NCBI GenBank assembly: GCA_016795155.1
Contig: JAEUIE010000052.1
Coordinates: 1-44,642, forward strand
Direction: 5' to 3'
Source of the DNA: Planctomycetia bacterium
GTDB lineage: Bacteria; Planctomycetota; Planctomycetia; Gemmatales; HRBIN36
Length of the DNA: 44,642 nucleotides
Shown here: piece by piece, positions 10,515 through 43,456 of the stretch
Position numbering within the stretch: position 1 is the stretch's first letter
Layout of the letters: the number at the start of each line of letters is the position of its first letter
Translations under genes and position numbers: made by a program
Notes under the pieces: model-generated
The model's input: only the letters and a program-made list of their open reading frames with translations
Told to the model about the DNA's origin: nothing
Databases searched by the model: none

Positions 10515-10529
10515 CTTCTGATGTCGTGG

Positions 10530-10548: not shown

Positions 10549-10585
10549 AGTGTTAAGCGACGTCTTAGCGTATAATCCCCCTGAT

Positions 10586-10604
10586 GACACGTTTTAAACG
10601 TGTC
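10586..10604. terminator. Palindrome downstream of nfu
   Basis: A 19-bp palindrome (9-bp arms around a single T at 10595), 6 nt beyond the stop of the minus-strand nfu gene. It could form a 7-bp stem with a 5-nt loop in RNA, or be a protein-binding dyad. No T run follows on the minus strand. Confidence 0.45.
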
Positions 10605-10610
10605 CCACAT

Positions 10611-10859
10611 TCATCGCTCTGGCGTTATCTCGATATAGTTCACTTCTGGCACCAGTTCCTGGAGTCGCCTCTCAATCCCCATGATCAGCGACATCGCGGT
10701 GCTGGGGCACGATTGGCAGGCGCCCTGCAGATGCACTTGCACCACACCATCGCTGTCCACGCCGGCCAGTTTCAATTCCAACCCGGATGCCTGCAGTGCA
10801 GGTACCAGTGAAGTGCGAAAAGCTTCTTCTACACGCTGTGATAACTCATTGGTCAGCAT
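10611..10859 (-). CDS. NifU-like C-terminal domain Fe-S scaffold protein
   Basis: An 82-residue protein that is just the Nfu/NifU C-terminal domain, which binds a 4Fe-4S cluster between two subunits through C-x2-C and passes it to client proteins. The motif is visible in GACQSCPSTAMSLIMGIERR, with VEEAFRTSLVPALQASG before it and LQELVPEV after it. The length fits the stand-alone Nfu form. The start overlaps the last 7 nt of ribF, so translation is probably coupled; the pairing of an Fe-S carrier with FAD synthesis is functionally reasonable but may be accidental. Confidence 0.9.
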   Translation of the reverse strand: MLTNELSQRVEEAFRTSLVPALQASGLELKLAGVDSDGVVQVHLQGACQSCPSTAMSLIMGIERRLQELVPEVNYIEITPER

Positions 10860-14177: not shown

Positions 14178-14197
14178 TCATTTTGAACGATCAATCG

Positions 14198-14235
14198 CAC
14201 AGCAGGTGGCCTAGAGCTTCCTGCTGTGTTTATTT
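14198..14235 (+). terminator. Rho-independent terminator of the Wza-like operon
   Basis: Perfect 9-bp stem (14198-14206 with 14220-14228), a 13-nt loop and a TTTATTT tail (14229-14235), 20 nt after the stop. The tail overlaps the last codons of the convergent cpsB-like gene. Confidence 0.82.
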
Positions 14236-15030: not shown

Positions 15031-15061
15031 GGCTTTCCTGTCCCGGTCCCGTTTAAACTAC

Positions 15062-15094
15062 AAAAAAACAGCCCGTGTTGTTGAACACGGGCTG
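15062..15094 (-). terminator. Rho-independent terminator between wzc and cpsB
   Basis: Perfect 11-bp stem (15069-15079 with 15084-15094) and a 4-nt loop, followed on the minus strand by seven T (15068-15062). It lies 22 nt after the wzc stop and 32 nt before the cpsB start, splitting the apparent operon. Confidence 0.92.
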
Positions 15095-15115
15095 CTGGTA
15101 CTGCCATGTGAGATG

Positions 15116-17557
15116 CTATTTCGGCTGATCGGCAGGCGATTCCATCGGCAGTCGATTGGCTGGCGTGGAATCGGAGTGAGGCATCGGAGGTGTGATTTCC
15201 GTTGCATCGCGATCCTGATAATATCCTTCGTCGCCATAACCGGCATAGTAGCGGTCGGAGTAATCGTACTTGTACTGGTAAGCCTGGGCGTAATCGTATT
15301 GACCGTAGCCATAACCATAACCATAGCCGTAGCCATAGCCATAACCGGTTGGGCCTTGCATGGATACGCCATTGACGATGATGCCGAGCGGCTTGGCGCC
15401 GAGTGACATCAGGATGTCGCGGGCACGTTCTGCAATGGGTCGGCCATTCTTGGTGACACGCATCGTCATCAATACTCCATCTACACGAGGAGCCACGACG
15501 CATGGGTCGGTAACGACCAGCAGCGGAGGCGTATCGACGATCACGTAATCATACTGTTCACGGAGTTCATCCAGCAGTTCCTTGAATCGTGGAGAGGTCA
15601 ACAGTTCAGCAGGATTAGGTGGAATCGGTCCGCAAGGCAGCAAGGAAAGGCCGGGAATGACAGTAGGCTGAATGGCATCGCGGAGATCGCATTGCCCCAT
15701 GATGGCTGCTGCAAATCCCTTTTCAGAAGGTACTGCAAAAACCTTGTGCAATCGCGGCCTGCGGAAGTCAGCATCGATCAGAATGGTCGATTTGCCTGAC
15801 TGTGCAATTGACACTGACAAATTGCTGGAGAGCGTCGTCTTGCCATCACCCATGTTCGGACTGGTGATCTGGATAACCTTGTGCCCTTCGCCACCCGTGC
15901 TGAAGTAGAGAGCGGTACGGATGCCACGGAATACTTCTGACTTGCGTGACTTGGGACGATAGTAGGTAACCAGTGTAGGGTCGGGGCCATTGATGGCGCC
16001 TTCCAGCTTGGCTGCTTCCTCTTCGGAGATAAGAATCGGAATATGACCAACCACGGGGATGTTGAGCCTGCGGCGGATTTCTTCTGGGCTGCGGAAGCTC
16101 TTGTCCGTGAGGTCTGCCAGATAGGCCAACCCGAATCCACCTAGCAGGCCGAAAATGGAGGAAAGCACCATGATGACAAAAAGTCGAGGCTCCACCTTGG
16201 TGGCCATCGAGGGATCAGCAATGGTTTCTGCAGCGTAGTTGACTTCATCCTTGGAAACCTTGATGCTGCTCATTTGCTCGGTCAGCGTGGTGATCAACTT
16301 CAGCGTTGCTTTCTTCTTCTCTTCATAATCGTTGCTGACCACCACCAGTTTGCCGAGATCTTTGACGGCGTCACGTTCCTTGGCAATTTCGGTATCCAGG
16401 ATTTTCAGAATATTGTCGTAGCGGATCAGTTCGAGTTTGAATGCATTGACCATCGATTGAATAGGAGTCTCTCGATTCTTGGACATTTCATCCTTGATGA
16501 CTTCATCTTTGATCTGGTTCAGTTCCTTGGTTTGTTCGGTCAGGTGCGATTGCAATGCAGCAATCTGCAGTCTGACGTCTTTCAACTCTGGATGATTCTT
16601 CCCATATTTCGATTCGTACATTTTTTCCAGCAGATCGAGTTGAACGAGTCGGTCACTGGTATTGGTGACTGGCACGGCATGGGTATTTTCCTGACCAGGT
16701 CGCACCAGTGAACTGCCCTGGAACTGTGATAAGAGTGAACGGTTATACCCTAATTCCAATCCCTTGCTGATCGCATCCAGTCGAGATTGGACTTCGAGTT
16801 TGCGTTCCATGGTTATGACACGGGTGTTTTCCAGCATATCCAATCGGGCGTACATCGGATTCTTACCGGAGGTGGTAGTTGGAATGGCCGGGTTCTGCTC
16901 CATGAATGCAATATGATCCTTGCGGAGCTTTTCGTAATCCTGTTGAATGGTGTTTTCAGCTTTTTTAATGACGGAGATCAAATCGCTGGTCTGGTTCTGG
17001 TTATTCTCTTTGAGGTATTCTTTATAGTGCTTAATGACTGCTAGAATAATAGTCTGACAATCGTTGGCGATTGGACCTTTGAAAGAAATCTGAAGGACCG
17101 GGCTGCGTCCATTGGGATCGCGGTTATCGCGAACGACCAGTAGCCCTGACATGAGAATGTTCAGCATGTCGGAAGGACTTTTCCCCAGAAACGTTTCCAA
17201 CTTCTTGATGTCAGCATCCTGAATGACATTTTTCAAGATGATCGGGGTGCGTAACAATGTAGCGTGGTAAGTCAGATAATCATCGTTCATGGAATAAGCA
17301 GCACGAGGATCATTGGCCATCAGAGGTGGCAGCTTTCGCTGCACGGACAGCAAGGCCTGTGATTGAAATACCGGATCTTTCTGGGTGTAATACAAAGCGC
17401 CAATGACCAGCGAGAGAATCAAGCCAAGAATCAGCAGCGACTTGCGCTGCCAGGCTATGCGGTAGATATTGGACTGTGAGACAGCTTCCTGCTGTTGCAA
17501 CATCATGTCATGCGTCGCTTGAACAGGCGTTCCTTCCAGCAATTCAGGACGAGTCAT
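15116..17557 (-). CDS. Wzc/CapAB-type polysaccharide copolymerase and bacterial tyrosine kinase
   Basis: An 813-residue inner-membrane protein controlling chain length and export of the polymer. Order: short cytoplasmic N-terminus; TM1 (about 40-58, LLILGLILSLVIGALYY); a large periplasmic Wzz-type coiled region (60-450); TM2 (about 455-478); then a BY-kinase domain with Walker A SPNMGDGKTTLSSNLS, Walker A' ILIDADFRRPRLH and Walker B YVIVDTPPLL. The C-terminus is the tyrosine cluster that is autophosphorylated. Here it is extreme: seven Gly-Tyr pairs encoded by a hexanucleotide repeat (15305-15346), then a further Tyr-rich stretch up to about residue 785. A strong AAGGAG precedes the ATG. It lies 44 bp after the WecA-like gene and is probably dephosphorylated by the neighbouring CpsB-like protein. 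Confidence 0.93.
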   Translation of the reverse strand: MTRPELLEGTPVQATHDMMLQQQEAVSQSNIYRIAWQRKSLLILGLILSLVIGALYYTQKDPVFQSQALLSVQRKLPPLMANDPRAAYSMNDDYLTYHATLLRTPIILKNVIQDADIKKLETFLGKSPSDMLNILMSGLLVVRDNRDPNGRSPVLQISFKGPIANDCQTIILAVIKHYKEYLKENNQNQTSDLISVIKKAENTIQQDYEKLRKDHIAFMEQNPAIPTTTSGKNPMYARLDMLENTRVITMERKLEVQSRLDAISKGLELGYNRSLLSQFQGSSLVRPGQENTHAVPVTNTSDRLVQLDLLEKMYESKYGKNHPELKDVRLQIAALQSHLTEQTKELNQIKDEVIKDEMSKNRETPIQSMVNAFKLELIRYDNILKILDTEIAKERDAVKDLGKLVVVSNDYEEKKKATLKLITTLTEQMSSIKVSKDEVNYAAETIADPSMATKVEPRLFVIMVLSSIFGLLGGFGLAYLADLTDKSFRSPEEIRRRLNIPVVGHIPILISEEEAAKLEGAINGPDPTLVTYYRPKSRKSEVFRGIRTALYFSTGGEGHKVIQITSPNMGDGKTTLSSNLSVSIAQSGKSTILIDADFRRPRLHKVFAVPSEKGFAAAIMGQCDLRDAIQPTVIPGLSLLPCGPIPPNPAELLTSPRFKELLDELREQYDYVIVDTPPLLVVTDPCVVAPRVDGVLMTMRVTKNGRPIAERARDILMSLGAKPLGIIVNGVSMQGPTGYGYGYGYGYGYGYGQYDYAQAYQYKYDYSDRYYAGYGDEGYYQDRDATEITPPMPHSDSTPANRLPMESPADQPK
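15305..15346. repeat. Hexanucleotide tandem repeat in the Wzc tyrosine tail
   Basis: Seven consecutive 6-bp units of the form RTARCC (plus strand) encode seven Gly-Tyr dipeptides on the minus strand. Unit variation (GTAGCC, ATAACC, ATAGCC) keeps the amino acids constant. Copy-number change by slippage would add or remove phosphorylatable tyrosines without a frameshift. Confidence 0.85.
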
Positions 17558-17601
17558 CGTTGTCTCCTTACAGACAGACTAATTCGCTCATTCCACAGCC
17601 A

Positions 17602-19128
17602 TCATACATTTTCTAAATGCAAATCAGAAAGAACAGGTACTTTCTGCGGTTTGACGCCAGAATGAGTCGGGACTCGTTCTGCCATCTCGGTCAACACCTG
17701 TTCCACATCTAGAATCATGGCACTGATTTGAGCCAATACCTCAGCATAAGGCCTGTGAATGGAACCTTCCAGTTCCATTCTTCCCACTACAGTCGCTTTG
17801 ATGCATAAAGGCAGAGAAAATTGCCAAACTTCGTTGGATTGAATGTCCAGATCGTGAAGTTGCCAATGGCCGTGATATCCTTCGTGCCAGGCCGGGGCAT
17901 TCACGTCCAGGCGTAATCCGATCAGCTTATGTTCGTAGGCCCAGGCTGTCAAACGGTTCCACAAATCCTGCCAATTCGTTGAGCCTTGCAGTTGAATGCT
18001 CATTTCCCGCACCTGGCCAGGCGTTCTGCCATTTAGCATGTTGGAAAACGTATTAGCCAGGCGTTTGCGAATGAGTGTCAATTCAACACTGCCAAACATC
18101 TTGGTGGCAATCAGTATCGCTACCACCATGCCTGCTGAAATCAGGGCATACATGCCATTTCGCAGGTAAGAAGCCAGCAATGCACCTAGCGTCGTTATAA
18201 GGCACATGGCAGCGACCATGCCCAGAATGCTGATGTTGGAAAAGCCTGAACTTGACATACGGTGGTGCAGGTGCCCGCGATCAACATCGTAGATGCTTCG
18301 ACCAGTCAGTTTGCGTCGGACAATCGCTGCCAGGGTGTCGAAAATCGGGAGAATCAGGAGTGCGAGCGGAGCTGCAAGGCTTACGGTGGCTAGCTCTTTC
18401 ATGGAGCTTTGAATACCGAGAATTCCAATGGTCAGACCAATGAGCATACTACCTGAATCACCCAGGAATATCTTGGCAGGTGGGAAGTTGAATCGGAGAA
18501 AACCCAACAGAGTACCGCCTAAACCAGCAGCAACACAGGCTGTGGCCCACACTTCATTGAGATATGCCACTCCCATAAAGGCAAGACTGGTGACCAAGCC
18601 GATGGTGGAAAGCAACCCATCCATGCCATCGAGCAGGTTGAGTGAATTGATAGCGCCCAGTAGCCAGAATGCAGTGAAAATGACCCCGAAGTAACCCAGT
18701 TCGATGGTCATCCCATCATATAGCGTGATACGATCCACTTTGGTTCCACTGGCAATCACGAGTGCAACAATCATTATCTGGCCAAGAAGTTTGAATCGTC
18801 CACGCAACCGGCCAAAATCATCCAGGACACCTAGTGCGCAGATTAAGCCACCGGCAATGAGAATGCCCAAATGCATGGCAAATTGTTCAGGCAGAATCTC
18901 GCCCGTGGTGCCACCCAGGAACCAGCCAACCATGATGGCTGAAAAGGTACCAAAGAGAATAATCGGGCCGCCTGCTACCGGAGTTGGCTTGGCGTGAAGT
19001 TTCCGTGTGCCATCCGGATGGTCGAGCAACCCGATACGTGTTGCAAGGCGCATTACCACCGGCGTCATGCCGATTGCAAAGAGCAATCCCACGGTGAAAA
19101 GAATCAAAAGCTGCAAGGCGAAATGCAT
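17602..19128 (-). CDS. WecA/TagO-type undecaprenyl-phosphate sugar-1-phosphate transferase
   Basis: A polytopic membrane enzyme that starts polysaccharide synthesis by moving a sugar-1-phosphate (in the family usually GlcNAc-1-P) from UDP-sugar to undecaprenyl phosphate. Family motifs are all visible: VLDDFGRLRGR with the Asp pair at 103-104, SLNLLDGMDGLL (about 162-173), FLGDSGSMLIG (221-231) and RGHLHHR (284-290). About ten transmembrane helices fill residues 1-345. The last 160 residues are a soluble domain absent from WecA itself, with no motif I know. AGGAG is well placed before the ATG. It leads the minus-strand arm with wzc and cpsB. Its leader contains a perfect hairpin (19147-19175) behind a candidate promoter (19204-19232). 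Confidence 0.9.
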   Translation of the reverse strand: MHFALQLLILFTVGLLFAIGMTPVVMRLATRIGLLDHPDGTRKLHAKPTPVAGGPIILFGTFSAIMVGWFLGGTTGEILPEQFAMHLGILIAGGLICALGVLDDFGRLRGRFKLLGQIMIVALVIASGTKVDRITLYDGMTIELGYFGVIFTAFWLLGAINSLNLLDGMDGLLSTIGLVTSLAFMGVAYLNEVWATACVAAGLGGTLLGFLRFNFPPAKIFLGDSGSMLIGLTIGILGIQSSMKELATVSLAAPLALLILPIFDTLAAIVRRKLTGRSIYDVDRGHLHHRMSSSGFSNISILGMVAAMCLITTLGALLASYLRNGMYALISAGMVVAILIATKMFGSVELTLIRKRLANTFSNMLNGRTPGQVREMSIQLQGSTNWQDLWNRLTAWAYEHKLIGLRLDVNAPAWHEGYHGHWQLHDLDIQSNEVWQFSLPLCIKATVVGRMELEGSIHRPYAEVLAQISAMILDVEQVLTEMAERVPTHSGVKPQKVPVLSDLHLENV

Positions 19129-19301: not shown

Positions 19302-22109
19302 TTACGACATACTAGATTGCCACATTCTGGCCCAGGATAAAGAATCTGGGCTGCAAAAGCATTCAGGTTTCTTACGGACAGATTGCTGTGGAGTCAAACA
19401 GGCAAGCCAGGCAGTATCAAACGATAGTGCCGGTTGCTTGGATTGGTCAAACTGTGCCTGACTGTGTGTCGTCTCAGGTGGCTGTCTCGACACGTCTGGC
19501 TCAATTCTGCTTGCACCACCGAGAAACGGTATGAGTTCCTGCCAGGGGTTTCGCTGGTTGGCTGAACCGTTATTGGCCGAGGTACGATAGCAAACGACGA
19601 GTAAATCTTTAGCCCGCGTAGCTGCTACATAGAGCAATCGTTGCTTCTCTGCTGCAATGCGCGTTTGTTCCTCGCTCGCAAACAGCTGCCAATCGGAAGG
19701 ATAAGCAAGCGAGGTCTTGGAATAGAGGCCAACTGTCTTCATGACATGCAGATAACCTGCAGGCTCAGCCTGTTCACGGCTCACATGCAGTTCCGGCTCA
19801 CGCTCTTTGGAGTACCCGCCTTGGCTATCAACCAGAATGACAACTCGAGCTTCCAGCCCCTTGGCTTTATGCAGGTTCATGATGCGAACACCGACACCAG
19901 CCTGGCTGGGAATGAACATGCCATCCCGTCGAGGCTTGCGTTCCATCAATCGTTCCAGAGAACGCAGTACCCCCTCTACAGTTTGGTCCTCCGAGTTTTC
20001 CTGTTGAATGCAAATCAGTGCTTTAGCCAGGCAGCCAGTACCAGCTTCCTGGCTGATTAATCTTGCCCAGAGCGGGAACCCTAACTTCTGCACAGCCCGC
20101 TCTAATGCAGCAGATACAGGCATGATGCTCAAGTGCTGAGACATTTCCTGGAGTAATTGAAAGACAGGCTGGATCAAACCTGCAAATGAATGTTGTGGTT
20201 CGGGAGTGATAGACCAGCGAAACTTACCTCCACTTTGCTGAAAAGCATACAGTTGTGCATCGCTGATGCCACACAGTTCGCTGCGCAAGAGGCCAACCAA
20301 TGATGCTGAATCATCAGGATCGCTGACGCTCTTCAGCAGCAGATAGAGCAATCGCAAACCGGAGAAATGATTGAGTTGCGAACCTCCAGTCACCTGGTGA
20401 GGTATTTTCCACTGCCCGAGCATATCGCCATAAACCTGCAGGCGTTCTCGTGCCATGCTCAGGATCATGAAGTCATCAGGCACAGCCTGGCTGGTCAGTC
20501 CCCGCTTGAGTTCCGATTCTGAACGCTCCAGGTGCAGATTGCCTGCACAAGCTTCCTGAATGAATCGGCAGATGGCATCCGCTTCGGCTTGAGCTACACC
20601 TTCTGTCCTGGTGCCTGCAGATTCTTCCGAAATCTCCAGGTATCGCAGGCATTGACTGAGCGGATGTGGTGATTGAATGCCAGGCAGCATTGATGAGTAA
20701 TTTGCCTGCGTTCCAGGCTGGGCCTGAGAAAAAACCGTTTCAAAGGTGGAGTTGAACCACTCGACAAGAGCAGGCTGCGAGCGAAAGTTGGAAGTAAGCT
20801 CTACCGCTTCACCACCAGCAGCAAGTAACCTGTTTTTCACCTGGTCATAGACTTGCAAATCAGCCCGGCGAAAACGGTAGATAGATTGCTTCGGATCACC
20901 GACCAGCAGTAAACTGCCCGGTCTTGGTTGAACCTTTAGCCAGTGACTGACATTGCGTTGCGCTGTCAGCCAGAAAATCAATTCTGCCTGAAGCGGATCG
21001 GTATCCTGAAATTCATCAACCAGCAGGCGTTTCCATTGCTGTGCAATCTGCTTGCGTACTTGCGGATATAGGCGAACCAGTTCCACGGTGCGCAACAGCA
21101 ATTCATGGAAGTTGATCAAGCCAAGCCGGCGTCGCTCTTCGCGGAAATACAGTTCTGATTGTTGAAGAAATCGGATAACAATGGGATAGCGATACGTGCG
21201 CCATTGATTGAGTAACGGGGTAATCACCTGCTCGCAAAAGAGATTCCATCGATCCCATTCCTGATCACACTGCTTGACGCCGCCCGGCCATCGACGCTTG
21301 GTCAGGCTGGCACCAGAATTAATGGGTGTAAACTCTTCCAGGTGTTTTATCACCTGGGCGGCTTCATTCCAGTTGATATTCTCAACCAGCCTGGGCAGCC
21401 TGCGATACTTCTGCATCAGTTTATCAGCAGCGTCAGCAGGCAAATTAGGCGAAAGCGACGCCATGTGTTGGTAATAACTTTCCAACTGTGTGCGAATGTT
21501 ACGGATATCTGGAGGCTGTGTCTCTGCTGCCGGCCAGATTGGAATGTCACTGTATTTTTCAAACAAGAACAAACATTCTTTCAAATCCAAAGGTGCAAGA
21601 CCGGCAGCCTGCAGTTCCAGCAAAATGGGGTCATTGCCGTTCAGCAACTCGTTTTCCCAGGCGAGCCACAATTCTTCCTGAATATCGCTGTCAGCATCTT
21701 CATCCAGTTCGGTGAACCCTGCAGGCAATCCAGCTTCTGCACTATACTCGCGAAGCAGCCGGGCACAGAAGCCATGAATGGTGCCGATGTAACACTGATG
21801 GATTTGTTCTAGTGCCTGTGTCAGCCTTTTTTTGATGCGCGAGTCTTCGGCTGCCTGGCAGGAAGCTTCCAACCTGATGAAGAACCGTGAACGCATTTCG
21901 CCCGCAGCTTTGCGGGTAAACGTCAAAGCGGCAATTTCATTTACTTTCGCTACACCCTGAGCCAGCATCTGCACCAATCGCTCTACTAATACCGTTGTCT
22001 TGCCTGAACCTGCAGAGGCTTCCACCAGATAATTGCGATCAAAGCTGCTGATCAACCTGTCCCGTACAGGTTGGTCTTCGGGAACCATATGCTGTGCACG
22101 TTGACTCAT
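19302..22109 (-). CDS. addA: AddA-like UvrD-family helicase lacking the nuclease domain
   Basis: The helicase subunit of an AddAB-type double-strand-break resection machine. All SF1A motifs are present: I VEASAGSGKTTVLVERL (near residues 29-45), II LLVDEFQDTDPLQ, III LLLVGDPKQSIYRFRRADLQ, IV ELTSNFRSQPALVEWF, V IMNLHKAKGLEARVVILVD and VI LLYVAATRAKDLLVV. Typical AddA has about 1,200 residues with a C-terminal PD-(D/E)xK nuclease. This one has 935, with only about 100 residues after motif VI and no nuclease motif, and the 170 bp beyond the stop hold no continuation. The ATG at 22109 forms a 4-bp ATGA overlap with the addB stop, which fixes the start; the open frame extending to 22205 is spurious. 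Confidence 0.88.
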   Translation of the reverse strand: MSQRAQHMVPEDQPVRDRLISSFDRNYLVEASAGSGKTTVLVERLVQMLAQGVAKVNEIAALTFTRKAAGEMRSRFFIRLEASCQAAEDSRIKKRLTQALEQIHQCYIGTIHGFCARLLREYSAEAGLPAGFTELDEDADSDIQEELWLAWENELLNGNDPILLELQAAGLAPLDLKECLFLFEKYSDIPIWPAAETQPPDIRNIRTQLESYYQHMASLSPNLPADAADKLMQKYRRLPRLVENINWNEAAQVIKHLEEFTPINSGASLTKRRWPGGVKQCDQEWDRWNLFCEQVITPLLNQWRTYRYPIVIRFLQQSELYFREERRRLGLINFHELLLRTVELVRLYPQVRKQIAQQWKRLLVDEFQDTDPLQAELIFWLTAQRNVSHWLKVQPRPGSLLLVGDPKQSIYRFRRADLQVYDQVKNRLLAAGGEAVELTSNFRSQPALVEWFNSTFETVFSQAQPGTQANYSSMLPGIQSPHPLSQCLRYLEISEESAGTRTEGVAQAEADAICRFIQEACAGNLHLERSESELKRGLTSQAVPDDFMILSMARERLQVYGDMLGQWKIPHQVTGGSQLNHFSGLRLLYLLLKSVSDPDDSASLVGLLRSELCGISDAQLYAFQQSGGKFRWSITPEPQHSFAGLIQPVFQLLQEMSQHLSIMPVSAALERAVQKLGFPLWARLISQEAGTGCLAKALICIQQENSEDQTVEGVLRSLERLMERKPRRDGMFIPSQAGVGVRIMNLHKAKGLEARVVILVDSQGGYSKEREPELHVSREQAEPAGYLHVMKTVGLYSKTSLAYPSDWQLFASEEQTRIAAEKQRLLYVAATRAKDLLVVCYRTSANNGSANQRNPWQELIPFLGGASRIEPDVSRQPPETTHSQAQFDQSKQPALSFDTAWLACLTPQQSVRKKPECFCSPDSLSWARMWQSSMS

Positions 22110-25102
22110 GATGACTTTCGGAGCACCCGTAATGGAGTTAGTATCGGGTTCTGTTGGTGTCCCTGTTTTCGGTGTGCCTGGTCGTTCACTTCGCCAACCG
22201 CACATGTTGTCTTAAATTCGCAAAGCCTGCAGGTTTCCTGCTGATCGGTAGCAAGAAAAATACCCGCCTGCATCAGTTCCAGTTCTGCATCAATTAAGGA
22301 TGTGTGTTTGCGAAGTTCCGTTGCAGGCCACTGGATGCGATCTCCTTGCCCACCGTGATGGCCGGGGAAAAAGTAGCCTGCTCCCGTCACCGTTGCTTCG
22401 TTGCCAATGATTTGCCGCAACCGTTTTTCCGCTATCTCCACATAGAGCAAAGGCTGAAGCATCTGCCCACCTTTACGCAATGCTGTTCCCTGAAACTCTG
22501 CAATACGGCCTGATTTGTAATCCCAGATGTAATACTCACTCGATGGCGATGCGTTCAACAAAACGGTATCAATGCGATCAATCCGCCCCTGTATTTGAAT
22601 GGTCTTGCCGGAAGGCAGCCGAAGCGAAACAGGTTCATCAGTGTCCAGTTCCGATAAGCCTGGCGGATGTTTCATGCCAATGGTGGTTTCGAAATACCGC
22701 GGAGTATATTGATCAGCCAATTGTGCTTCACCCAGCAGGAAAAAGTGAAGCGATTCGTGAAGCTGGCTGATTTCCTGGTTGCGAATGTGAGCCGAAGTCT
22801 CCGGCAGTACTTCGGCTCGACGCTGCAATGTCTTCTGGAGCAGTTGCTGAAGTAAGATTGCATCCTTCAGTCGATCAGGCTTGCGGCGTTCCTGCAGCAA
22901 TTGCACATGATACTGATGGAAAACATCGTGAAGAATTTCACCACGAAGCAGTGCCGTTAACCATTGTCCAGGCTGGATGTTCGTGTACTCTGGTGCTTGA
23001 AGACGAAGCACATCATGAAAGAAAAATTTCAGCGGACACTGGTGATAACGCTGAAGCGAATGTGCTGAGAAGCTGCGCTTACTCCGCATCGGATCAAACT
23101 CACCACCAGCTTCGGGTACATATCCATCGAATTCTGTGAATTGATAGGATTTACGTTTCTTCGCTGCATGTGCTCCACGCCAGAGCATGGGGAAATCACT
23201 ACGAAAAAGTGCATTGGTAAAGGGCTGTTCCGGAAAATGATCAAGCCAGCTTTCCGTCGGCGTCAGATGGCAAAGCGATGTATCCGGCCCCAGGGGAGCA
23301 GGCAGCCAGCTTTCCAGTTCGTGCAGATCACCTTCTGGCAAACCAGTCTGCAATCGAAATATCCGCAGAAACAACTGGCTCGGAAACAGTTCGCGATCTT
23401 CCATTTGATTTGCACTGGGATAAGTGAACATCACCTGGCCGTCATACTCCTGCAAGGAGCGGATAAAACGGTTATCCTGCTGACGCAGCAATTCACGCGT
23501 CGTTTGTTGCTGCAATTCAGGCGAAAGCACCCGCCGCTCGCGATCCGTCAGCAGCGATTCGTGACGGGGTATGGACGGATAATGATCTTCTGACATTCCA
23601 ATACAGAACAGCCACTTTTTTCGAGGCGATTCCTGCAGGCTGATGGGAGTCAACAGCAGGGAGCCGGGCTTCTCCATTTCATCTGGCAAAGTGGAGTTTT
23701 CCAGCCGGGCCGACAATCGTTGCCAGACATGCAGCGTACTTTGAAATGATTCCTGACAGAAGACGCTCAGCATCTCTTCTAAAAACTTTGTTGCCTGAAG
23801 ATCCCATGAATCATCACAAACGGATTGATTGAGTAGTTTTTCTGCCGCTCTCCAGGCTTGCTCGATGTTCTCGTTACTTTCGGGAACTGGCTCCAGAATA
23901 TCCTGAAACAGGTTTCTTAACGCATTAGCTTCAGGATGATCAATATGAAGTTGAAGCTGTCTGAGCCAACTTGATTTGCTGGTGCATGGAGGAATGGAAC
24001 GGATCAGGTTGAGCAGTGTTTCCTCGTGATCCTTCGGCAGAATCAGCAATCTCTGGAGCAGCAGTTCGATCAGCGGCTCACGTCGGAAAGATGATTGAAT
24101 CCAGCGTAGCCAGAATTGCAGAGCTCTGCCAGGTCTGGTCCAGATCAGTGGGATGCCACCACGAAAACAGAGTGGGACTTTCTTTTCGGATGTATGGCGA
24201 AGCCCGTTGACCAGAGAATAAAACAACCCAGGGTAGATGCTCTCGTCTGTGTAGAACACTTCCACTTCATCAAATGGAATCTGGTTTCTGATCAGCGTTC
24301 CCAGAACAGCGCGAACTTCATATTCCGGGCTGAGTGCCCGATGCATTATCAAGCTGCCATCATTGAGAGGCACGGGAGCCTGCTGCGGTTTATTCAACCA
24401 AGCCAAACGTTGCGAGTCCCGGTACGCACGGCGATTAGGGGCTGGTCTCTTGGTGGATAATGGAACCACATCATCCATGGGCAGATGATCCAATATCGAT
24501 TGAAACAGGCCCTTGGCAGTTATTTCCTCTGCAAGAATTATTTTGCAGCTTGGTATTCCGCCCTCCGCTAACAGGCGATCACGAGCAAGAACCAGCACTC
24601 GTGCCGGATCAGCCAAGGCTCCGTTATTGAGTAGTTGCTCGTACTGTTGAAGCACCGCTTTCAGAAGCACTCCCTTATCAGGATTGGGAAATGCTTCGGT
24701 ATCGATATCCGCAGATTCCATTCCCACCATACGCATCTCATGAATGGTGGAACGAAGGCTCGGAATAATCTGCGAGTGATTCTGGAAAGCCTCAACTACT
24801 TTCACCGGCAGTTCCGATTTGGCTTGATGCCAGGCCGTAGCGACGAGTGATTCCTGTTGTAGCGGCGTCAATAGTTTGAGCTTGAAAAACGAAACGGACG
24901 GCGAAGCCAACTCTGCAGCAAGCTCCCAAAGTGAGCAGGGATATATTCGAAGGGATTGTGGGTAAGCCTGATGAAAGAGTTCGGCCAGGTTTTGTGCAGA
25001 GGCCAGTGTTGAACTGAGTAGTAATATTTTTACTGGTGCTTCGGACAGATTCTTGGCTATCTCAGCCAGTTCATCAAGACGTGGATCGTTCCCTGATACC
25101 AT
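22106..25102 (-). CDS. addB: AddB-like subunit with Fe-S nuclease domain
   Basis: The partner of AddA, 998 residues. The C-terminal part is a RecB-type PD-(D/E)xK nuclease: the core motif appears as YIWDYKSGRIAEFQG (about residue 860), followed by a Q-x3-Y-type element (QMLQPLLYVEIAEK). A 4Fe-4S staple is built from Cys near 688 (YHQCPLKFFF) and C-x2-C-x5-C near 953-962 (CRLCEFKTTC), the exact AddB spacing. The N-terminal half resembles an inactivated helicase: at the Walker A position it reads ILLLSSTLASAQNLAELF, with no G-x-G-K-[ST]. In this pair AddA therefore supplies the motor and AddB the only nuclease. AGGA lies 6 nt before the ATG. The stop overlaps the addA start (ATGA). Confidence 0.88.
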   Translation of the reverse strand: MVSGNDPRLDELAEIAKNLSEAPVKILLLSSTLASAQNLAELFHQAYPQSLRIYPCSLWELAAELASPSVSFFKLKLLTPLQQESLVATAWHQAKSELPVKVVEAFQNHSQIIPSLRSTIHEMRMVGMESADIDTEAFPNPDKGVLLKAVLQQYEQLLNNGALADPARVLVLARDRLLAEGGIPSCKIILAEEITAKGLFQSILDHLPMDDVVPLSTKRPAPNRRAYRDSQRLAWLNKPQQAPVPLNDGSLIMHRALSPEYEVRAVLGTLIRNQIPFDEVEVFYTDESIYPGLFYSLVNGLRHTSEKKVPLCFRGGIPLIWTRPGRALQFWLRWIQSSFRREPLIELLLQRLLILPKDHEETLLNLIRSIPPCTSKSSWLRQLQLHIDHPEANALRNLFQDILEPVPESNENIEQAWRAAEKLLNQSVCDDSWDLQATKFLEEMLSVFCQESFQSTLHVWQRLSARLENSTLPDEMEKPGSLLLTPISLQESPRKKWLFCIGMSEDHYPSIPRHESLLTDRERRVLSPELQQQTTRELLRQQDNRFIRSLQEYDGQVMFTYPSANQMEDRELFPSQLFLRIFRLQTGLPEGDLHELESWLPAPLGPDTSLCHLTPTESWLDHFPEQPFTNALFRSDFPMLWRGAHAAKKRKSYQFTEFDGYVPEAGGEFDPMRSKRSFSAHSLQRYHQCPLKFFFHDVLRLQAPEYTNIQPGQWLTALLRGEILHDVFHQYHVQLLQERRKPDRLKDAILLQQLLQKTLQRRAEVLPETSAHIRNQEISQLHESLHFFLLGEAQLADQYTPRYFETTIGMKHPPGLSELDTDEPVSLRLPSGKTIQIQGRIDRIDTVLLNASPSSEYYIWDYKSGRIAEFQGTALRKGGQMLQPLLYVEIAEKRLRQIIGNEATVTGAGYFFPGHHGGQGDRIQWPATELRKHTSLIDAELELMQAGIFLATDQQETCRLCEFKTTCAVGEVNDQAHRKQGHQQNPILTPLRVLRKSS

Positions 25103-27129: not shown

Positions 27130-28071
27130 GTGGCGGTTTTCTCCGAAAACCAGACTATCCCAGAAATGGATCGCCATTCGGTTTTGGTCTTTGCCGTTGA
27201 ACCTGATGAGCAACAGCAGGTGTGCGATGCACTTTGTTGCCATGATGACTGGGCCGTTCGTTTTGTCACTTCCGAAAAACAAGCTCTGGCAGAAATTTCC
27301 AAGAACCCGCCGGCGCTGATGCTGGTCGATATGCAGGATCTCGTCAAGCACGGCATTGACTTTGTAGATACCTTGCGTCGAAAGCATCCTCTGGTGCCAG
27401 TAGTTCTGCTGACCCGAAGAGACGATGAACCCGTCTTTCAGGCTTTGCGGCATGGTGCAGTAAACTATGTACCCTGGAAATTGATTGATACCGGTCTGGT
27501 TGAAGTAGCAGAAAGTGTTTTGCTCGCTTCTGAGGTGCGCAAGTGCCGCAATCGTCTTCTTTCCTACACCGTGAAACAGGAACATCACTTTTCACTGGGT
27601 AACGATACTTCGCTGGTACCTGCACTGATCGGGTTGTTCCAGGAATCTTTACTGGGCATGGGTATCTGTGATCAGGCAGAAAGCATTCGCGTCAACATGG
27701 CAATGGAAGAAGCACTGCTCAATGCCATTTACCATGGCAACCTGGAAGTCAGTTCCAAGCTTCGAAACGATCCGGAACGTGGCGATGAACCTTATCGTGA
27801 AGAGATTGAAAAACGCCGCAAGTTGTCTCCGTACAAAGATCGAAAGATTACAGTACACGCCAGGCTGACCACCACGGAGGCGCATTTTGTCATCAGCGAT
27901 GAAGGGCCTGGATTTGATCCCGGCGCTCTGCCAGATCCAACCGATCCAGATAATATTGAACTGGCCAGCGGTCGTGGTCTGCTACTGATTCGCACCTTCA
28001 TGGATGAAGTGCATCATAATGAGCAGGGAAATACCATCACGATGATCAAACGACGTCAAAACGGCAAGTAG
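27130..28071 (+). CDS. Receiver-like domain fused to RsbW-type HATPase (anti-sigma kinase-like)
   Basis: A 313-residue cytoplasmic regulator with two modules. Residues 16-130 have the pattern of a CheY-like receiver, with Asp67 (ALMLVDMQDL) as candidate phospho-acceptor, Thr95 (VVLLTRRDD) and Lys117; the usual acidic pair is present as E24-P-D26. Residues 180-310 form a GHKL ATPase of the RsbW/SpoIIAB class: N box MEEALLNAIYHGN, G1 DEGPGFDPG and G2 GRGLLLIRTFMDEV, with no HisKA domain. The fusion suggests a phosphorylation-switched anti-sigma factor or Ser kinase; that is inference. The start is GTG with GGAG 7 nt upstream (next ATG is residue 13). A consensus -10 TATAAT (27089-27094) lies upstream without a clear -35. 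pyrR follows after 28 bp. Confidence 0.8.
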   Translation: MAVFSENQTIPEMDRHSVLVFAVEPDEQQQVCDALCCHDDWAVRFVTSEKQALAEISKNPPALMLVDMQDLVKHGIDFVDTLRRKHPLVPVVLLTRRDDEPVFQALRHGAVNYVPWKLIDTGLVEVAESVLLASEVRKCRNRLLSYTVKQEHHFSLGNDTSLVPALIGLFQESLLGMGICDQAESIRVNMAMEEALLNAIYHGNLEVSSKLRNDPERGDEPYREEIEKRRKLSPYKDRKITVHARLTTTEAHFVISDEGPGFDPGALPDPTDPDNIELASGRGLLLIRTFMDEVHHNEQGNTITMIKRRQNGK

Positions 28072-37944: not shown

Positions 37945-38430
37945 ATGTTCGAACGTGAACTTACCATCTACCGTTTTCTTACCGGTTACGAAAAGATCGT
38001 TCTGGCTGATTTGCCGGATGAGCAGTTCAACCAGCCGCCGTTTCCTGGGGGAAATCCCCCATCATGGATTGTAGGACACCTGGCCCTTTCATCCGATTTC
38101 GTATTGATGGTGCTGGATAAACCCAGGCTTTGTCCCAAAAGCTGGAACGTACTCTTTGGTCCCGGTTCCGATCCCAGAAAGCATCTCGATAAGCATCCAC
38201 GAAAAGAGGAACTGGTGGCGGCACTGGGGATAGGTAAAGAAGCTGTTTTCAGAGAAGTGCCTGGAGCCAGTCCCGACCTGTTGACCAAAGTGAATCCTTT
38301 TGAACCACTACGACAATATTTACCTACCGCGGGAGACTTGATCACGCACCTGCTGACTTCCCATGAGAGTTTTCATCTCAGCCAGTTGTCGGCATGCAGA
38401 AGATCAGCAGGGTTTACACCAGTCTTTTAA
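37945..38430 (+). CDS. DinB/YfiT-like four-helix metalloprotein
   Basis: A 161-residue soluble protein of the DinB superfamily, a four-helix bundle with a three-His metal site; members serve as thiol S-transferases or have unknown roles. Visible features are the PPSWIVGHLALSSDFVL helix with the first His, and the C-terminal LITHLLTSHESFHLSQLSAC with the others (H-x3-H). The length is typical. CAGGAG lies properly before the ATG. A CATAAT box (37915-37920) with TTGCTG 16 nt upstream may be its promoter. Its TAA stop overlaps the stop codon of the convergent tandem kinase gene. Confidence 0.8.
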   Translation: MFERELTIYRFLTGYEKIVLADLPDEQFNQPPFPGGNPPSWIVGHLALSSDFVLMVLDKPRLCPKSWNVLFGPGSDPRKHLDKHPRKEELVAALGIGKEAVFREVPGASPDLLTKVNPFEPLRQYLPTAGDLITHLLTSHESFHLSQLSACRRSAGFTPVF

Positions 38431-41400
38431 CGCAGCCTGCTCTGAATGTCGTTGCGTAGCCTGCGAAGTGGATCGCGCTGGTCCTGCGGTGCCTGTACCA
38501 ATGCGACATCGAGAGCTTCTATGGCTTCCTGACGCAGGGCTTTGGCTTGCTCTTCCCCTGCATCAATCGCATCCTGATCCAGGAAACGAGCCTGGTAACT
38601 GGCCAGTTCCCACGAGCCATTCGTCACTTGTTTGGTCTTGAGCAATGCTCGAATGTCATTCATCGTTGCTTTGCGATAATCGGCCTTGCCCTGGTCGGCG
38701 CCAGCACGGGCAAACAGCACGAGGTTGGCAGTGGCAGATGCTTCCAGTGCGTCAGCCTGCATCTTGACCTGCTGTGCTGGTAAAAGTCGTAGCGCGGTTT
38801 GCGCATCCAGGCGGCTGTTCTGCAGTTGCTTCTGCACTTCTTCCCACGGAGTTGCCTGCGAGATGCTGCGCCGGATCAGATTGCTGCGAACAATCAACGG
38901 CGATGCGTGAGACAAGTTACATTGTGCACGATCTGCAGGAATATAGCGATTGAGCAATGGCACCAGAACGAGCGGTTGATCCTGCAGCAACGAAATAGCC
39001 TGGCTAAGGAGGTTGCTTCCCAGGCTGGCATGTTGCGTTGCCTGATAAAACGCATCCACTGCGCGCCCCGCATCATTTTTGATCAGGTAGTATCTACCGA
39101 GCCAGAATTGTGCCTCTGCCAGATCAGGGTCAAGTTTGATTGCCTTTTGCAACGCCCTGAAGGATTGCTCCAGCCGGGCTGCATCGTTTTTATCGTTCAA
39201 TGCCCAGCGTAACAGACAGCGACCCAGGTAGGCATGCCCGGTTGCCATCGAGGGGCGTGCTTCGAGTTGCTGACGATATGCACTGGTCGCGGATTCAAAA
39301 ATAGTCTGTGCAGCAGCGCCACCCAATAGTATTGCGAGGCGTTCACGTGCCTGCCCCAGCGATTCCCATGCAGCTTCGTAATTCTTATCCAGTTGCGTAG
39401 CCTGCAGGGCGTCGTTGATGGCATCCTGGTACATCTGCTGCCGCTGATTTTCCGCAATGGGTGTGTAATCACCCAGCATCGATTTGGCCAGGCTGCGATT
39501 GCTGCGAAAGATGGCAAGTACACGATCGCGCGGGTTCACGGATTCAGCAATCTGAATGGCCTTGTCGTACGCAGCGATGGAGTCATTCAGGGTTTGCCGC
39601 AATTCGGTTTCGTTGTTCCCTTGTGCCAGTTGGTAATACCTGGCAATGCCCATGAGATTCCACCCGCCAGCAAAGGTGGGGTCTGCTTGTGTTGCTGCAT
39701 TTGCATTCGTGGTAATGGCTGCAATATCCGCTGCCGAAAGGCTCCATAGTCTGTTCAGGCACTGCCCCTGACCAGTCAGATACTCAGCCCTGGTACGCCC
39801 AGAACCCGGATACAGTTTGAGGGCTTGTCCGTAGGCATCAGCAGCAACACGCAGCGCCGGCTTATTGCCTAGCTCAGGCCAGTTTTCATAGGGCGTATCA
39901 AAAATCAATTCGCCCTGGGCGGCATAGATCGTTGCGAGTTGGGCATGCTGCCCGGACTTCAGCTTGGTAGTTGCTGCCAACTGCTGTGCAGGCCTGAGAA
40001 TGCGTTCATACAGTGTCAGCGGGCTGGTGGCTTCAAACATGGTTCGATGAGCTTTAATGAACTGCCATGTCTGTGCGTAGTAATCGATTGCCTGATCATT
40101 CAGCTTGGACCTTTGAGCAGATTCTGCCTGTTTCAGCTTGAGGCTGGTTAACAGCACCGGCCCCTGGGGCATCTTGAGTATTTCATCCTGCCAGGGCGAC
40201 GTGAGCAGAGGTTGCAACTCATCTGGATGCTTGGGAATCGGGTTTTGGATTGCAGCCAACAGGCTTAACATCAGGTGTGATGTGTTTTTACCAATAAATC
40301 GTTCTGCGGTGGGCAGCCAGGCCGGTATTGGAGCCGCTACTTGCGCACTCAGTGCCTGCACATCGGTGACGTAATTCACCCGCTCAGCAGCTTTCTCGAA
40401 AATGGTCAAAGCCCGGTCACGACGAAAACCGGTGAGCGAGATGTCTCGTTTCAGTGATTCTTCCAATGCAGTAACCGCACGCTTGGGATCATTCATTTCC
40501 TGCCAGAAGCGTGCCTGCACGTAATGAGTGTATGCCGTCGGTGCATTCAAGGTGTTCATCTGCTTAAGCCAGTGATCGGCCTGCTGCAGATTTTTGTTTT
40601 CACCTTCCATCATGCATTCGGCACGAAATGCAAACAGCTTGCTTGAATAGGCACTGGCTGGCACCTGTTCGAGTTCGCGGTAATTCTTACTGAAGATAAC
40701 CGGTTGATTGGCATTGGCTATCACACTGTCTAAGCGAGCCTGAAGGAAACTGGGGAACCCCGGCTCCTGGATATTCTTGCCCAGCACAAAAACAGGTGTT
40801 GGAACCGGAATGGGTTTCGTTGCGACCGGAGGCGGGGCAAGCAATTCCGGTGGCTTGGTTATGGGCGGTGCGGGCTGTTGATTGTTCGTTGCAATGATGT
40901 CAGGAGTCTTGTTCGTCGTAACATTGGTAGTGGGCTCAATTTTCTCTTCTACGTACAGTGGCCCGACAAACTCGCCCGTTCTGTTGCGGTCTATCACATT
41001 GGTTGCAAGTGCAGGCTGAGTAGCCTGAGCAATGGAACTTTCGGGAGATTTGTCCAGTAGCTGATTAACCAGCAATGCCATGCCGATGCCAACAGCAAAA
41101 ACGCCAGCCAGTGGAATCAGGATTTTCCGCAGTGGACCCTTCTCATTGACTGTCTGTACGGTTTCCTTCTCCGTGGCACCCTGGATTACAGGACGTATTT
41201 CCGGCTGCGTATCGAGGTTGGCGTCCACTTCGGAAGGCGTCTTCAGAGGTGCAGGGTACACTTCATGCGGTTGCAGCATGACTGGCATCGTCGTATGCTC
41301 ATCACGCGTTTTCACAGCAGGCCGTGCAGGTTCTTTCTGGACAGGTTCAGCCTTTCGCGCTGGTGGGGCAGGTGGCGGAGCATCATCGAGATCGAAACCA

Positions 41401-43319
41401 TCCTCTTCTACTGAGTGCATTAATTCGCCATTGGCGGGCACTGCTTTCACCAGTGCATTGATAAACGCCTGGCATGATTCAAACCGTTCTTCAGGAAGTA
41501 CGCTGGTGGCTCGTGCAATCACCATGCGCTCAGCTTTCAACAATCGTTCCAGATCGAGTTGGCCTTCCAGTTGCCTCATCATCTGATCGTACGCTGAGCA
41601 ATCAGGCCCGTAAGGCAACTGACCGGTTCGCAACTGATAGTAAGTGATGGCCATCGAGTACTGATCAGACCATCGAGTGACTTTGCCTCGAAGCACTTCT
41701 GGCGCAGCATAGTGGAAGGTGAACCCGACAGAATCCTGCTTGATCTCGGCAACAATGTTTTCAGTTTCCAGCACTTTCGCCAGGCCGAAATCGGTCAGCT
41801 TGACAACATCATTGGCCAGCATGATGTTGTCAGGCTTCACATCACGATGTTGGATGGAAACCAGTCGATCACCCAGTTTATGTCGGGGCTGATTGAGGTA
41901 ATCCAGCGCCTGGGCCACTTGCTTCATGTAACCCAGCAATTCCTGGGCAGGTATGCCAGGCTTGCCTTCTTCCTGGTACTTTTCCATCACCTGCGTCAGG
42001 TTGCGATCTGCCAATCTGGTTGCAATCACCAGCGTGGCTGGCGTCGGCGAACCCGCATGGCCTCGCAACTCGTCCGGTATCGGCTGGCCATGCCGATCCA
42101 GCAACCAGTAGGCTCGCAGTTCCATCAGACTGTTGTGATGGATGTGCTGAATAATCTCGAGTGCGCGATATTCCTGTTTGCCTCGGCCGCCAACACGATC
42201 AAGATCCTTGATGATCTTGAGTGCAATGGGAACACGGCCTGGCGCCTGTGCTTCCCAGACTTCGCCATACGCGCCACGACCCAGCAGCGATACCAGCTTG
42301 TGCCCTGGCACAATTTCGCGGTTGGGTTCGATCACCAGGTTATCCTGCTGAACCGATCCAGCCCGTTCGATCGCCCTGCGGAGTTCGCGTGCCAGATCCT
42401 GACAGTTGGCAAACCGGGCTTCAGGTCTTCGACTGGCTGCCCTGCGAATCACCTGTTGTTCTGCCGTGCTCAGTTGCGAGAGATCCAGCCTGCCTTCGAG
42501 TGCCTCAGTCAGAATGACATTGGTTTCATTCATCGAAAAGGGCAGGGTGCCTGTGCGCAGGAAATAATAGGTAATCGCCAATGAATATTGATCGCTGTAA
42601 GGACTGGGCACGCCGGTTTCCAGCATTTCCGGCGATGTGAACCCAATGGACACTCCCGGATGCGAAGAGTTTCGAAGTTCTCCCAGTACATGTGACAGCC
42701 CATAGTCACATACCTGTACCGCACCTCCGACGATAAGAATGTTCTGGGGCTTGATGTCGCAATGCGGAAGCGACCTGAGACCTTTGCCCAGATCATGTTT
42801 AGCAGCATTCAAATGATCAATCGCTCGCGAAGCATCTTCAAAGTAGCTGATCAACTCCACACTTGGTATGCCCGTTTCCCCCTGTGCTTGGCACTCCTTC
42901 AATTGGTCAAGCAGGCTACGCTCACCCAGGCCCATGGCAACATAAAGGGCTTCGGGTTGTTCCGATTTGATGTCCAGAGAGAAGTCACCCAGCGTGTGGG
43001 TACTATCACTGGGGCTAAATGGATTCTTTGAAGGTCTTTCCTTCTTGCGGGCATCGTTCGCCGAGACGTAGCCTTCATCATCCCGAATCCACATGGCGAG
43101 AATCGGGCACAGATTTGGATGGCGGATTTTCTTGATCAGTTCCACCGAACGCAGATCGGTGAAGCCGGGTTTGTCTTTGAGCTTGATGATTTTGAATGCG
43201 ACTTCAGTGCCACCAGGCCCGCTGGCCTGCCAGACATCTCCGTACCCGCCTTTGCCAAGAAACTTGACCAGGCGGTACCCTCGAACAGGCTCGTCACCTT
43301 GTTGAAATGCTCGGGGCAT
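38427..43319 (-). CDS. Giant tandem Ser/Thr kinase-TPR membrane protein
   Basis: About 1,630 residues. Two Hanks-type kinase domains in a row: the first (about 14-320) has LGKGGYGDVW, Lys43, a divergent catalytic loop HCDIKPQNIL (186-195) and DYG in place of DFG (205-207); the second (about 340-640) has LGRGAYGEVW, Lys368, canonical HRDVKPDNIM (491-500) and DFG (510-512). Their similarity points to internal duplication. A Pro-rich linker leads to one transmembrane helix near 730-752 (IPLAGVFAVGIGMALLVNQL), another Pro/Thr-rich linker, then about 750 residues of extracytoplasmic helical repeats, TPR-like in places (SMATGHAYLGRCLLRWALN; AEAQFWLGRYYLIKNDAGRA). The frame opens at 43376; the ATG at 43319 is preferred because related kinases begin just before GDEPVRGYRLVKFLG. 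Confidence 0.9.
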   Translation of the reverse strand: MPRAFQQGDEPVRGYRLVKFLGKGGYGDVWQASGPGGTEVAFKIIKLKDKPGFTDLRSVELIKKIRHPNLCPILAMWIRDDEGYVSANDARKKERPSKNPFSPSDSTHTLGDFSLDIKSEQPEALYVAMGLGERSLLDQLKECQAQGETGIPSVELISYFEDASRAIDHLNAAKHDLGKGLRSLPHCDIKPQNILIVGGAVQVCDYGLSHVLGELRNSSHPGVSIGFTSPEMLETGVPSPYSDQYSLAITYYFLRTGTLPFSMNETNVILTEALEGRLDLSQLSTAEQQVIRRAASRRPEARFANCQDLARELRRAIERAGSVQQDNLVIEPNREIVPGHKLVSLLGRGAYGEVWEAQAPGRVPIALKIIKDLDRVGGRGKQEYRALEIIQHIHHNSLMELRAYWLLDRHGQPIPDELRGHAGSPTPATLVIATRLADRNLTQVMEKYQEEGKPGIPAQELLGYMKQVAQALDYLNQPRHKLGDRLVSIQHRDVKPDNIMLANDVVKLTDFGLAKVLETENIVAEIKQDSVGFTFHYAAPEVLRGKVTRWSDQYSMAITYYQLRTGQLPYGPDCSAYDQMMRQLEGQLDLERLLKAERMVIARATSVLPEERFESCQAFINALVKAVPANGELMHSVEEDGFDLDDAPPPAPPARKAEPVQKEPARPAVKTRDEHTTMPVMLQPHEVYPAPLKTPSEVDANLDTQPEIRPVIQGATEKETVQTVNEKGPLRKILIPLAGVFAVGIGMALLVNQLLDKSPESSIAQATQPALATNVIDRNRTGEFVGPLYVEEKIEPTTNVTTNKTPDIIATNNQQPAPPITKPPELLAPPPVATKPIPVPTPVFVLGKNIQEPGFPSFLQARLDSVIANANQPVIFSKNYRELEQVPASAYSSKLFAFRAECMMEGENKNLQQADHWLKQMNTLNAPTAYTHYVQARFWQEMNDPKRAVTALEESLKRDISLTGFRRDRALTIFEKAAERVNYVTDVQALSAQVAAPIPAWLPTAERFIGKNTSHLMLSLLAAIQNPIPKHPDELQPLLTSPWQDEILKMPQGPVLLTSLKLKQAESAQRSKLNDQAIDYYAQTWQFIKAHRTMFEATSPLTLYERILRPAQQLAATTKLKSGQHAQLATIYAAQGELIFDTPYENWPELGNKPALRVAADAYGQALKLYPGSGRTRAEYLTGQGQCLNRLWSLSAADIAAITTNANAATQADPTFAGGWNLMGIARYYQLAQGNNETELRQTLNDSIAAYDKAIQIAESVNPRDRVLAIFRSNRSLAKSMLGDYTPIAENQRQQMYQDAINDALQATQLDKNYEAAWESLGQARERLAILLGGAAAQTIFESATSAYRQQLEARPSMATGHAYLGRCLLRWALNDKNDAARLEQSFRALQKAIKLDPDLAEAQFWLGRYYLIKNDAGRAVDAFYQATQHASLGSNLLSQAISLLQDQPLVLVPLLNRYIPADRAQCNLSHASPLIVRSNLIRRSISQATPWEEVQKQLQNSRLDAQTALRLLPAQQVKMQADALEASATANLVLFARAGADQGKADYRKATMNDIRALLKTKQVTNGSWELASYQARFLDQDAIDAGEEQAKALRQEAIEALDVALVQAPQDQRDPLRRLRNDIQSRLR

Positions 43320-43456
43320 AACATCCACACTATCAGGGCGATACGTAGCAAAGTATAGCTTGTGCATCATGCACATGCATCACTACGCGTTAATTTTCCT
43401 CTTGTACCCTAGTTTGCCCAGTTTGTGGAGAGGAATTGTCTGGAATGTCCCCATAT

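Follow-up and report, generated by a model that had tools for sequence, protein, structure and literature searches.

A probable receptor-like Ser/Thr kinase of a planctomycete with a fused non-RD/RD pair of kinase domains, both probably competent

Has the first of two kinase domains in one bacterial protein become the regulator of the second, or is it still a kinase? The question is raised by an open reading frame (ORF) of 1649 amino acids at 38427-43376, on the reverse strand of a 44,642-nt stretch of DNA (hereafter the window) from Planctomycetia bacterium (assembly GCA_016795155.1, contig JAEUIE010000052.1, positions 1 to 44,642 of the forward strand). An earlier note on this DNA had proposed that the first kinase domain (D1) has altered catalytic motifs and, being weak or regulatory, controls the second (D2) in a JAK-like arrangement that would be unusual in bacteria. 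The reading that we favour, to which we give an even chance, is that the protein is a receptor-like Ser/Thr kinase that crosses the membrane once and carries a fused non-RD/RD pair (RD, Arg-Asp in the catalytic loop), in which both domains are probably competent and D1 serves as an activator or allosteric partner of D2.

Both domains have the features of Hanks-type Ser/Thr kinases, i.e., the Pkinase fold, the Lys, the Asp of HxD, the Asp of DxG and the D-x-K-x-x-N pattern, and as judged from these residues both are probably capable of catalysis. Their tandem arrangement in a single ORF was confirmed by Pfam (Pkinase, E 4.4e-52, spread over several stretches), by the motifs and by AlphaFold2. 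D1 (residues ~33-338, 42363-43280, delimited by Pfam, AlphaFold2 and its structural neighbour PknB) is of the non-RD type. Sequence and alignment place in it the glycine loop GKGGYGDV, the intact beta-3 Lys motif AFKII (Lys62; 43185-43199), the alpha-C segment FTDLRSVE (43140-43163), the catalytic loop HCDIKPQN (42741-42764), the metal-binding motif CDYGLS (42693-42710) and the end of the activation loop, SIGFTSPE (42627-42650); these and all features of the ORF given below lie on the reverse strand. D2 (residues ~353-649, 41430-42320; Pfam, AlphaFold2), which is 38% identical to D1, is the canonical RD Ser/Thr kinase that it was said to be, with the glycine loop GRGAYGEV and, from sequence and alignment, the beta-3 Lys motif ALKII (42210-42224), the catalytic loop HRDVKPDN (41826-41849), the metal-binding motif TDFGLA (41778-41795) and the activation-loop segment DSVGFTFHYAAPE with its conserved Ser/Thr (41697-41735).

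Pseudokinases have been defined by the loss of at least one of three residues, the beta-3 Lys, the catalytic Asp and the metal-binding Asp (PMC12599244). All three are present in D1, as is the catalytic-loop Asn, and D1 is thus not a pseudokinase by this rule. Moreover, all 16 aligned tandem proteins have the same beta-3 Lys and catalytic Asp in D1. The HCD and DYG motifs, with Lys and Asp retained, are as the earlier note described them, and HCD is indeed rare in this genome, where the pattern HCD-x-K-P occurs in 2 places (D1 of the window and one single-domain kinase ORF) vs 91 for HRD. To call the motifs altered is nevertheless an overstatement, since HCD is the norm of the D1 lineage and DYG recurs. 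Among the 15 intact D1s of the core tandem proteins (see below), nine have HCD, two HGD and four HRD, so that 11 of 15 are non-RD. The 67 aligned single-domain rows have HCD in 48, HGD in 6, HLD in 3, HRD in 9 and HRA in 1, a count biased toward HCD because most of these relatives were fetched with a contig-scan pattern containing [HL][CG]D; twelve rows obtained instead by genome similarity search (L003-L005, L007, L008, L020, L021, L126, L127, L130, L135, L136) gave 6 HCD, 2 HGD, 3 HLD and 1 HRA. One HRD row (L121_661_S) is in fact D2 of a tandem at a contig edge, NCgw, which leaves 66 true singles, and for some rows at contig ends a second domain could lie beyond view. A search of 96 stretches at the heads and tails of single-domain kinases brought up no hidden second domain (best E 0.01, in the head of an ORF of the window). 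All three catalytic residues are kept in 66 of the 67 rows.

DYG is found in two of the 67 single-domain rows and in D1 of a paralogue within the same genome (L026). LRRK2, which is an active kinase, has it too, with the Tyr acting as a brake (PMC6660771), and by this analogy DYG is compatible with activity. We therefore rejected HCD and DYG as marks of degeneration, HCD being usual in D1s and single-domain relatives, and with them the proposal that these motifs identify D1 as regulatory.

The second domains are of the opposite type. All eight intact core D2s are RD, and all eight carry the activation-loop motif S-x-G-[FLM]-T, which remains in one of ten dead core D2s when the count is limited to the activation loop, as it is here (a regular expression over the whole domain finds it in 3 of 10). 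Of the 15 intact core D1s, that of the window alone has this motif. The SIGFT in its loop, which within the core family is elsewhere a D2 motif only, may have arisen by convergence or by conversion between domains. RD kinases are generally gated by phosphorylation of the activation loop, whereas non-RD kinases are not gated in the same way. The position of a non-RD D1 beside an RD D2 thus suggests that D1 is the activator.

The remainder of the protein follows the layout of planctomycete receptors in which an N-terminal Ser/Thr kinase is followed by a single span and a C-terminal array of TPRs. A Pro/Glu-rich linker (residues 650-751, 41124-41429) leads to a single predicted membrane span (residues 752-770, 41067-41123; hydropathy 2.56) and, further on, to a TPR-like helical-repeat region (residues ~870-1649, 38430-40769) recognized by AlphaFold2, by Pfam TPR and by homology across relatives. 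Both the single span and the some 750 residues of helical repeats read earlier from the sequence hold up: AlphaFold2 predicts an all-helical array at ~874-1649 (mean pLDDT 81.8), i.e., ~780 helical residues, in which Pfam has a single weak TPR_11 match near residues 1401-1428. Since orthologues align from Met20, the true start is probably at 43319, as previously assumed. Where planctomycete kinases combine a single span with TPR repeats at the C-terminus, the kinase is predicted to be cytoplasmic and the repeats mostly periplasmic (PMC11032199), and by analogy the TPR array of the window protein would lie outside the cytoplasm and its kinases inside.

For D1-D2, structure prediction by AlphaFold2 returned two kinase folds (mean pLDDT 82.8, pTM 0.50); the folds of this model are sound and the relative placement of the domains is not confident. 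The top structural neighbour of D1, among 50 matches listed, is Mycobacterium tuberculosis PknB (Z 28.1, 254 residues, 2.6 Å). In a Foldseek search with the D1-D2 model, ranks 1-3 were TYK2/JAK chains (4oli, 8ewy, 7t6f), with alignments spanning both domains at a TM score of ~0.34 and a root-mean-square deviation (rmsd) of ~20-25 Å. The first of them, TYK2 4oli, aligns at TM 0.34 and rmsd 19.7 Å with a query model whose pTM is only 0.50; the ranking appears to reflect a shared number of kinase domains rather than a shared arrangement.

The following mechanism would fit these observations. The two N-terminal kinases would be cytoplasmic, with the TPR-like array across the membrane. Binding of a ligand or protein partner to the array would rearrange the kinase pair, and D2 would then be switched on through phosphorylation of its activation loop, whether by D1 or in trans. 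Not being gated by its loop in the manner of RD kinases, D1 would be the activator or allosteric partner, either phosphorylating the D2 loop or propping D2 in its active shape, and may have substrates of its own. There is a precedent in plants, where the non-RD receptor EFR, an active kinase, also activates the RD kinase BAK1 without catalysis, even when EFR is kinase-dead (PMC11259431). The topology, the coupling between the domains and the order of activation are the conjectural part of this scheme; the residues, predicted folds, family and selection are observed.

How common is this arrangement, and which domain do its members keep? The architecture is widespread in Planctomycetia, though in a minority of genomes; a common architecture, which the earlier note said would refute its proposal, is thus only half borne out. 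An order-level search found a match at E<=1e-60 in 9 of 102 genomes, and a class-level search found one at E<=1e-100 in 22 of 397 genomes, with both domains in fewer. A scan of named genomes yielded 78 loci, nearly all labelled planctomycete. In a phylum-wide draw of 392 genomes, the only match at E<=1e-110 was the genome of the window itself; the draw caught no other genome positive in the class-level search and hence says little about other classes. From all loci, 25 multi-kinase proteins were taken, 24 of them complete; 17 of the complete ones are core tandem proteins. Six of these (the window protein, L039, L041, L040, L054, L044) have two intact domains, D1 alone is dead in one (L038), D2 alone is dead in nine (L043, L026, L045, L047, L048, L123, L141, L094, L165) and both are altered in one (L068), i.e., D2 is dead in 10 of 17 and D1 in 2 of 17, counts that are not independent because of shared ancestry. 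An error in a metagenome-assembled genome could mimic a single lost residue (HCN in L043, HRN in L068); L038 has two altered motifs. Outside the core, both domains are intact in L051 and D2 is dead in L036, L096, L108 and L110.

The C-terminal regions of members with live and dead D2s are related (L041 vs L165, E 1e-14; vs L045, E 8e-9), and the whole layout is thus shared. Pfam can miss D2 altogether, as in L047, where it reports one Pkinase stretch only, and tandem pairs may therefore be under-annotated. The D1s of L047, L048, L123 and L141, which belong to one clade, have HRD unlike other D1s, and the D2s next to them are among the most degenerate; this is possibly a compensating switch. 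In L040, the tandem ORF (7001-8932, forward strand) overlaps by 26 nt a separate 704-aa ORF (8907-11018, forward strand), so that the C-terminal half is seemingly a separate gene, or else the assembly has a frameshift. Two closely similar triple-kinase proteins, L049:481-7461 (+) and L046:4732-7386 (+), have Arg for the catalytic Asp in the middle domain (HAR/HCR), with the outer two intact.

The genome of the window (G000, 5.28 Mb, in which the window is contig C52) has 115 Pkinase places, some of which are pieces of one domain. It encodes a second core tandem protein on contig C10 (L026:962-6421, reverse strand), in which D1 is intact (HGD/DYG) and D2 lacks the glycine loop, the Lys and the metal-binding Asp. 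A third two-kinase protein, on contig C15 (L036:3590-6460, reverse strand), is non-core and has a dead second domain (HLS).

Dead domains in this family are not simply eroding. Ratios of nonsynonymous to synonymous substitution (dN/dS) were obtained by the Nei-Gojobori count and are rough, as dS is 1.2-1.3 for the degenerate D2s. In two pairs whose D2s keep none of the three catalytic residues, dN/dS of D2 was 0.126 (L047/L048) and 0.099 (L145/L146), as compared with 0.081 and 0.094, respectively, for the intact D1s; the C-terminal regions of these pairs reached 0.299 and 0.132. Unconstrained decay does not agree with such D2 values (~0.10-0.13), and the most degenerate D2s are thus read as maintained pseudokinases; the nearness of their values to those of active D1s suggests that the pairing itself is selected. 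Likewise, the D1 pair of BJ17a (L039) and TPA gave 0.147 although D1 of TPA is dead. Purifying selection on dead domains implies that a partner role can outlast catalysis, which would favour an allosteric component in the coupling. For D1 of the window, synonymous sites are saturated and dN/dS has no value.

A first tree of the kinase domains left out 14 of 116 domain rows. From a careful tree of 68 domains, 41 of the 67 single rows were omitted, as were 9 of the 51 multi-kinase domains because they were long or near-duplicates; its bootstrap had not settled. D1s and single-domain kinases form a well-supported group (41 rows, 100/100), which also holds the unrelated D2 of L051 and one third domain, and 18 core D2s fall to one side of a branch whose support is just 89/36. 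As the core D2s stand apart from the group of D1s and single-domain kinases, D1 and D2 are probably old paralogues. Within that group, core D1s and single-domain kinases are intermingled in the best tree, and a single D1 clade was weakly rejected (p-AU 0.035, approximately unbiased test); single-domain kinases may have lost D2, or tandems may have arisen more than once. Seven dead D2s form one clade (100/99) and share an Asp-to-Asn change in the metal-binding motif (NFA, NFS, NYA, NLA). The minimum number of changes on the tandem tree is three for D2 and two for D1. A silent partner thus evolved repeatedly, and usually in the second domain, opposite to JAK.

Several observations weigh against a competent, activating D1, and most of them would support the proposal of the earlier note, namely that D1 is already weak or effectively dead and regulates D2 in cis as JH2 does JH1 in JAK. 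The alpha-C Glu, found in all 67 single-domain rows and kept in 14 of the 15 intact core D1s, is Asp74 in the window, a change without parallel that the earlier note had missed. From its conservation and its position in a predicted helix, this Glu would be the partner of Lys62; its replacement by Asp perhaps weakens D1 and could even leave it dead. DYG and deviations at 5 of 54 conserved columns point the same way. In the close relative L038, D1 has lost its metal-binding Asp (H to L and D to V, codons checked) and D2 is intact, and the order of the domains would match that in JAK. In the clade of the window, the D1 branch is longer than that of D2 (0.67 vs 0.38), and identity to BJ17a is 58% in D1 vs 66% in D2, as might be expected of a D1 en route to regulation. 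However, D1 of the window keeps its catalytic residues within a lineage where HCD is normal, the intact D1 of BJ17a is nearly as deviant (4 of 54), and relative-rate tests with four outgroups gave outgroup-dependent results (p 0.003, 0.052, 0.052 and 1.0), only one of them significant. In addition, the dead domain of the family is mostly D2, and the resemblance to TYK2/JAK is poor and drawn from a model of unsure orientation. What stands of this proposal is that pairs of a kinase and a degenerate kinase exist in the family under purifying selection, and that D1 changes faster in the small clade of the window and is dead in one of its members; as an account of the window protein itself, the JAK-like reading is weakly supported, and we hold it to be unlikely.

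Two further points bear on the favoured reading. Four intact D1s, all in one clade, are RD, so that the non-RD/RD pairing is not universal, and AlphaFold2 shows no confident packing between the domains. The latter, together with the six of 17 core members in which both domains are intact, is what would be seen if two active kinases acted on separate substrates with no mutual regulation, the tether just co-localizing them; the repeated loss of catalysis in a domain that stays under purifying selection argues for a non-catalytic role that matters family-wide, and we hold this reading to be improbable. Still less probable is a D1 that is simply decaying, its changes functionless. The faster D1 branch and the D1-dead member of the same clade would agree with decay, but the catalytic residues and 49 of the 54 conserved columns are kept, and the D1 pair of BJ17a and TPA is constrained despite the dead TPA domain. 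A fused pair of probably competent kinases, in which D1 would activate D2 or be its allosteric partner, remains our preferred reading.

More tentatively, and at somewhat less than an even chance, we propose that the window protein belongs to an ancient Planctomycetia family that fused a competent kinase pair to one sensor, in which either partner was repeatedly made a maintained allosteric pseudokinase, mostly the second and once or twice the first. With both domains probably competent, and with a close relative whose D1 is dead and a paralogue in its own genome whose D2 is dead, the window protein would represent a living intermediate of a counterpart to JAK-like regulation in cis that bacteria evolved independently. 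The transition from kinase to pseudokinase is usually visible only at its end point. Here, one family has members with both domains competent, the first dead, the second dead and both altered, some within one genome or in close relatives, which makes the transition and its direction testable. If the proposal is true, in-cis regulation of a kinase by a pseudokinase is not confined to eukaryotes.

Of the genes flanking the kinase ORF, one encodes a DinB-type protein and the other a glucosamine-6-phosphate isomerase/6-phosphogluconolactonase-type protein; neither gives a clue to its function. Elsewhere in the window, a receiver domain is fused to an HATPase_c_2 domain (27130-28071, forward strand), and overlapping genes for a UvrD-type helicase and a PD-(D/E)XK nuclease (19302-25102, reverse strand) form a pair that we take to be AddAB-like. 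A polysaccharide export protein, a Wzz + AAA_31 protein and a family 4 glycosyltransferase at 12768-19128 probably constitute an exopolysaccharide cluster.

Among known systems, the nearest in layout are the planctomycete Ser/Thr kinases with C-terminal TPR/WD40 arrays, which share with the window protein the N-terminal Ser/Thr kinase, the single span, the TPR array and a large genomic kinase set (PMC11032199); in contrast to these, two kinases precede its span. The main text of that study does not contain the terms "two kinase domains", "inactive" or "pseudokinase", and its supplements (307 architectures) may list double-kinase proteins. The text of the review of bacterial pseudokinase families by O'Boyle et al., whose members lack the Lys, the catalytic Asp or the metal-binding Asp like the dead domains described here, contains neither "tandem" nor "planctomycet" (PMC12599244). 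In literature that covered few subscription journals, we found no publication dealing with planctomycete tandem kinases or with pairs of a kinase and a pseudokinase in these bacteria. Thus, planctomycete receptors with kinase, span and TPR array are already known, and for the tandem-kinase form we found no characterization in the literature searched.

PknB-type Hanks kinases resemble the window protein in their fold, Ser/Thr catalytic loop and single span with an outer sensor; the window protein differs in having no PASTA match, two kinase domains and a non-RD D1. JAK and TYK2 likewise have two kinase domains in one chain, the first degenerate and the second active. In the window protein both domains are intact, its relatives mostly lose the second, no FERM- or SH2-like domain is among its Pfam matches up to E 1, and the D2 loop HRDVKPDN has the Ser/Thr form, not that of Tyr kinases. 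To our knowledge, plant tandem kinase-pseudokinase proteins have no TPR sensor. These proteins, e.g., Yr15/WTK1, are tandem kinases with one degenerate partner and are of plant origin (PMC6170490). In EFR and BAK1, too, a non-RD kinase that can act without catalysis is paired with an RD partner (PMC11259431; see also PMC8463890); they are two separate plant receptors, whereas the window protein is one chain, and the analogy is functional only.

Finally, in RSK and MSK a relay links two competent, dissimilar kinases within the same chain, as proposed here for the window protein, although these proteins are cytosolic, join two unlike kinase families and have no membrane span.

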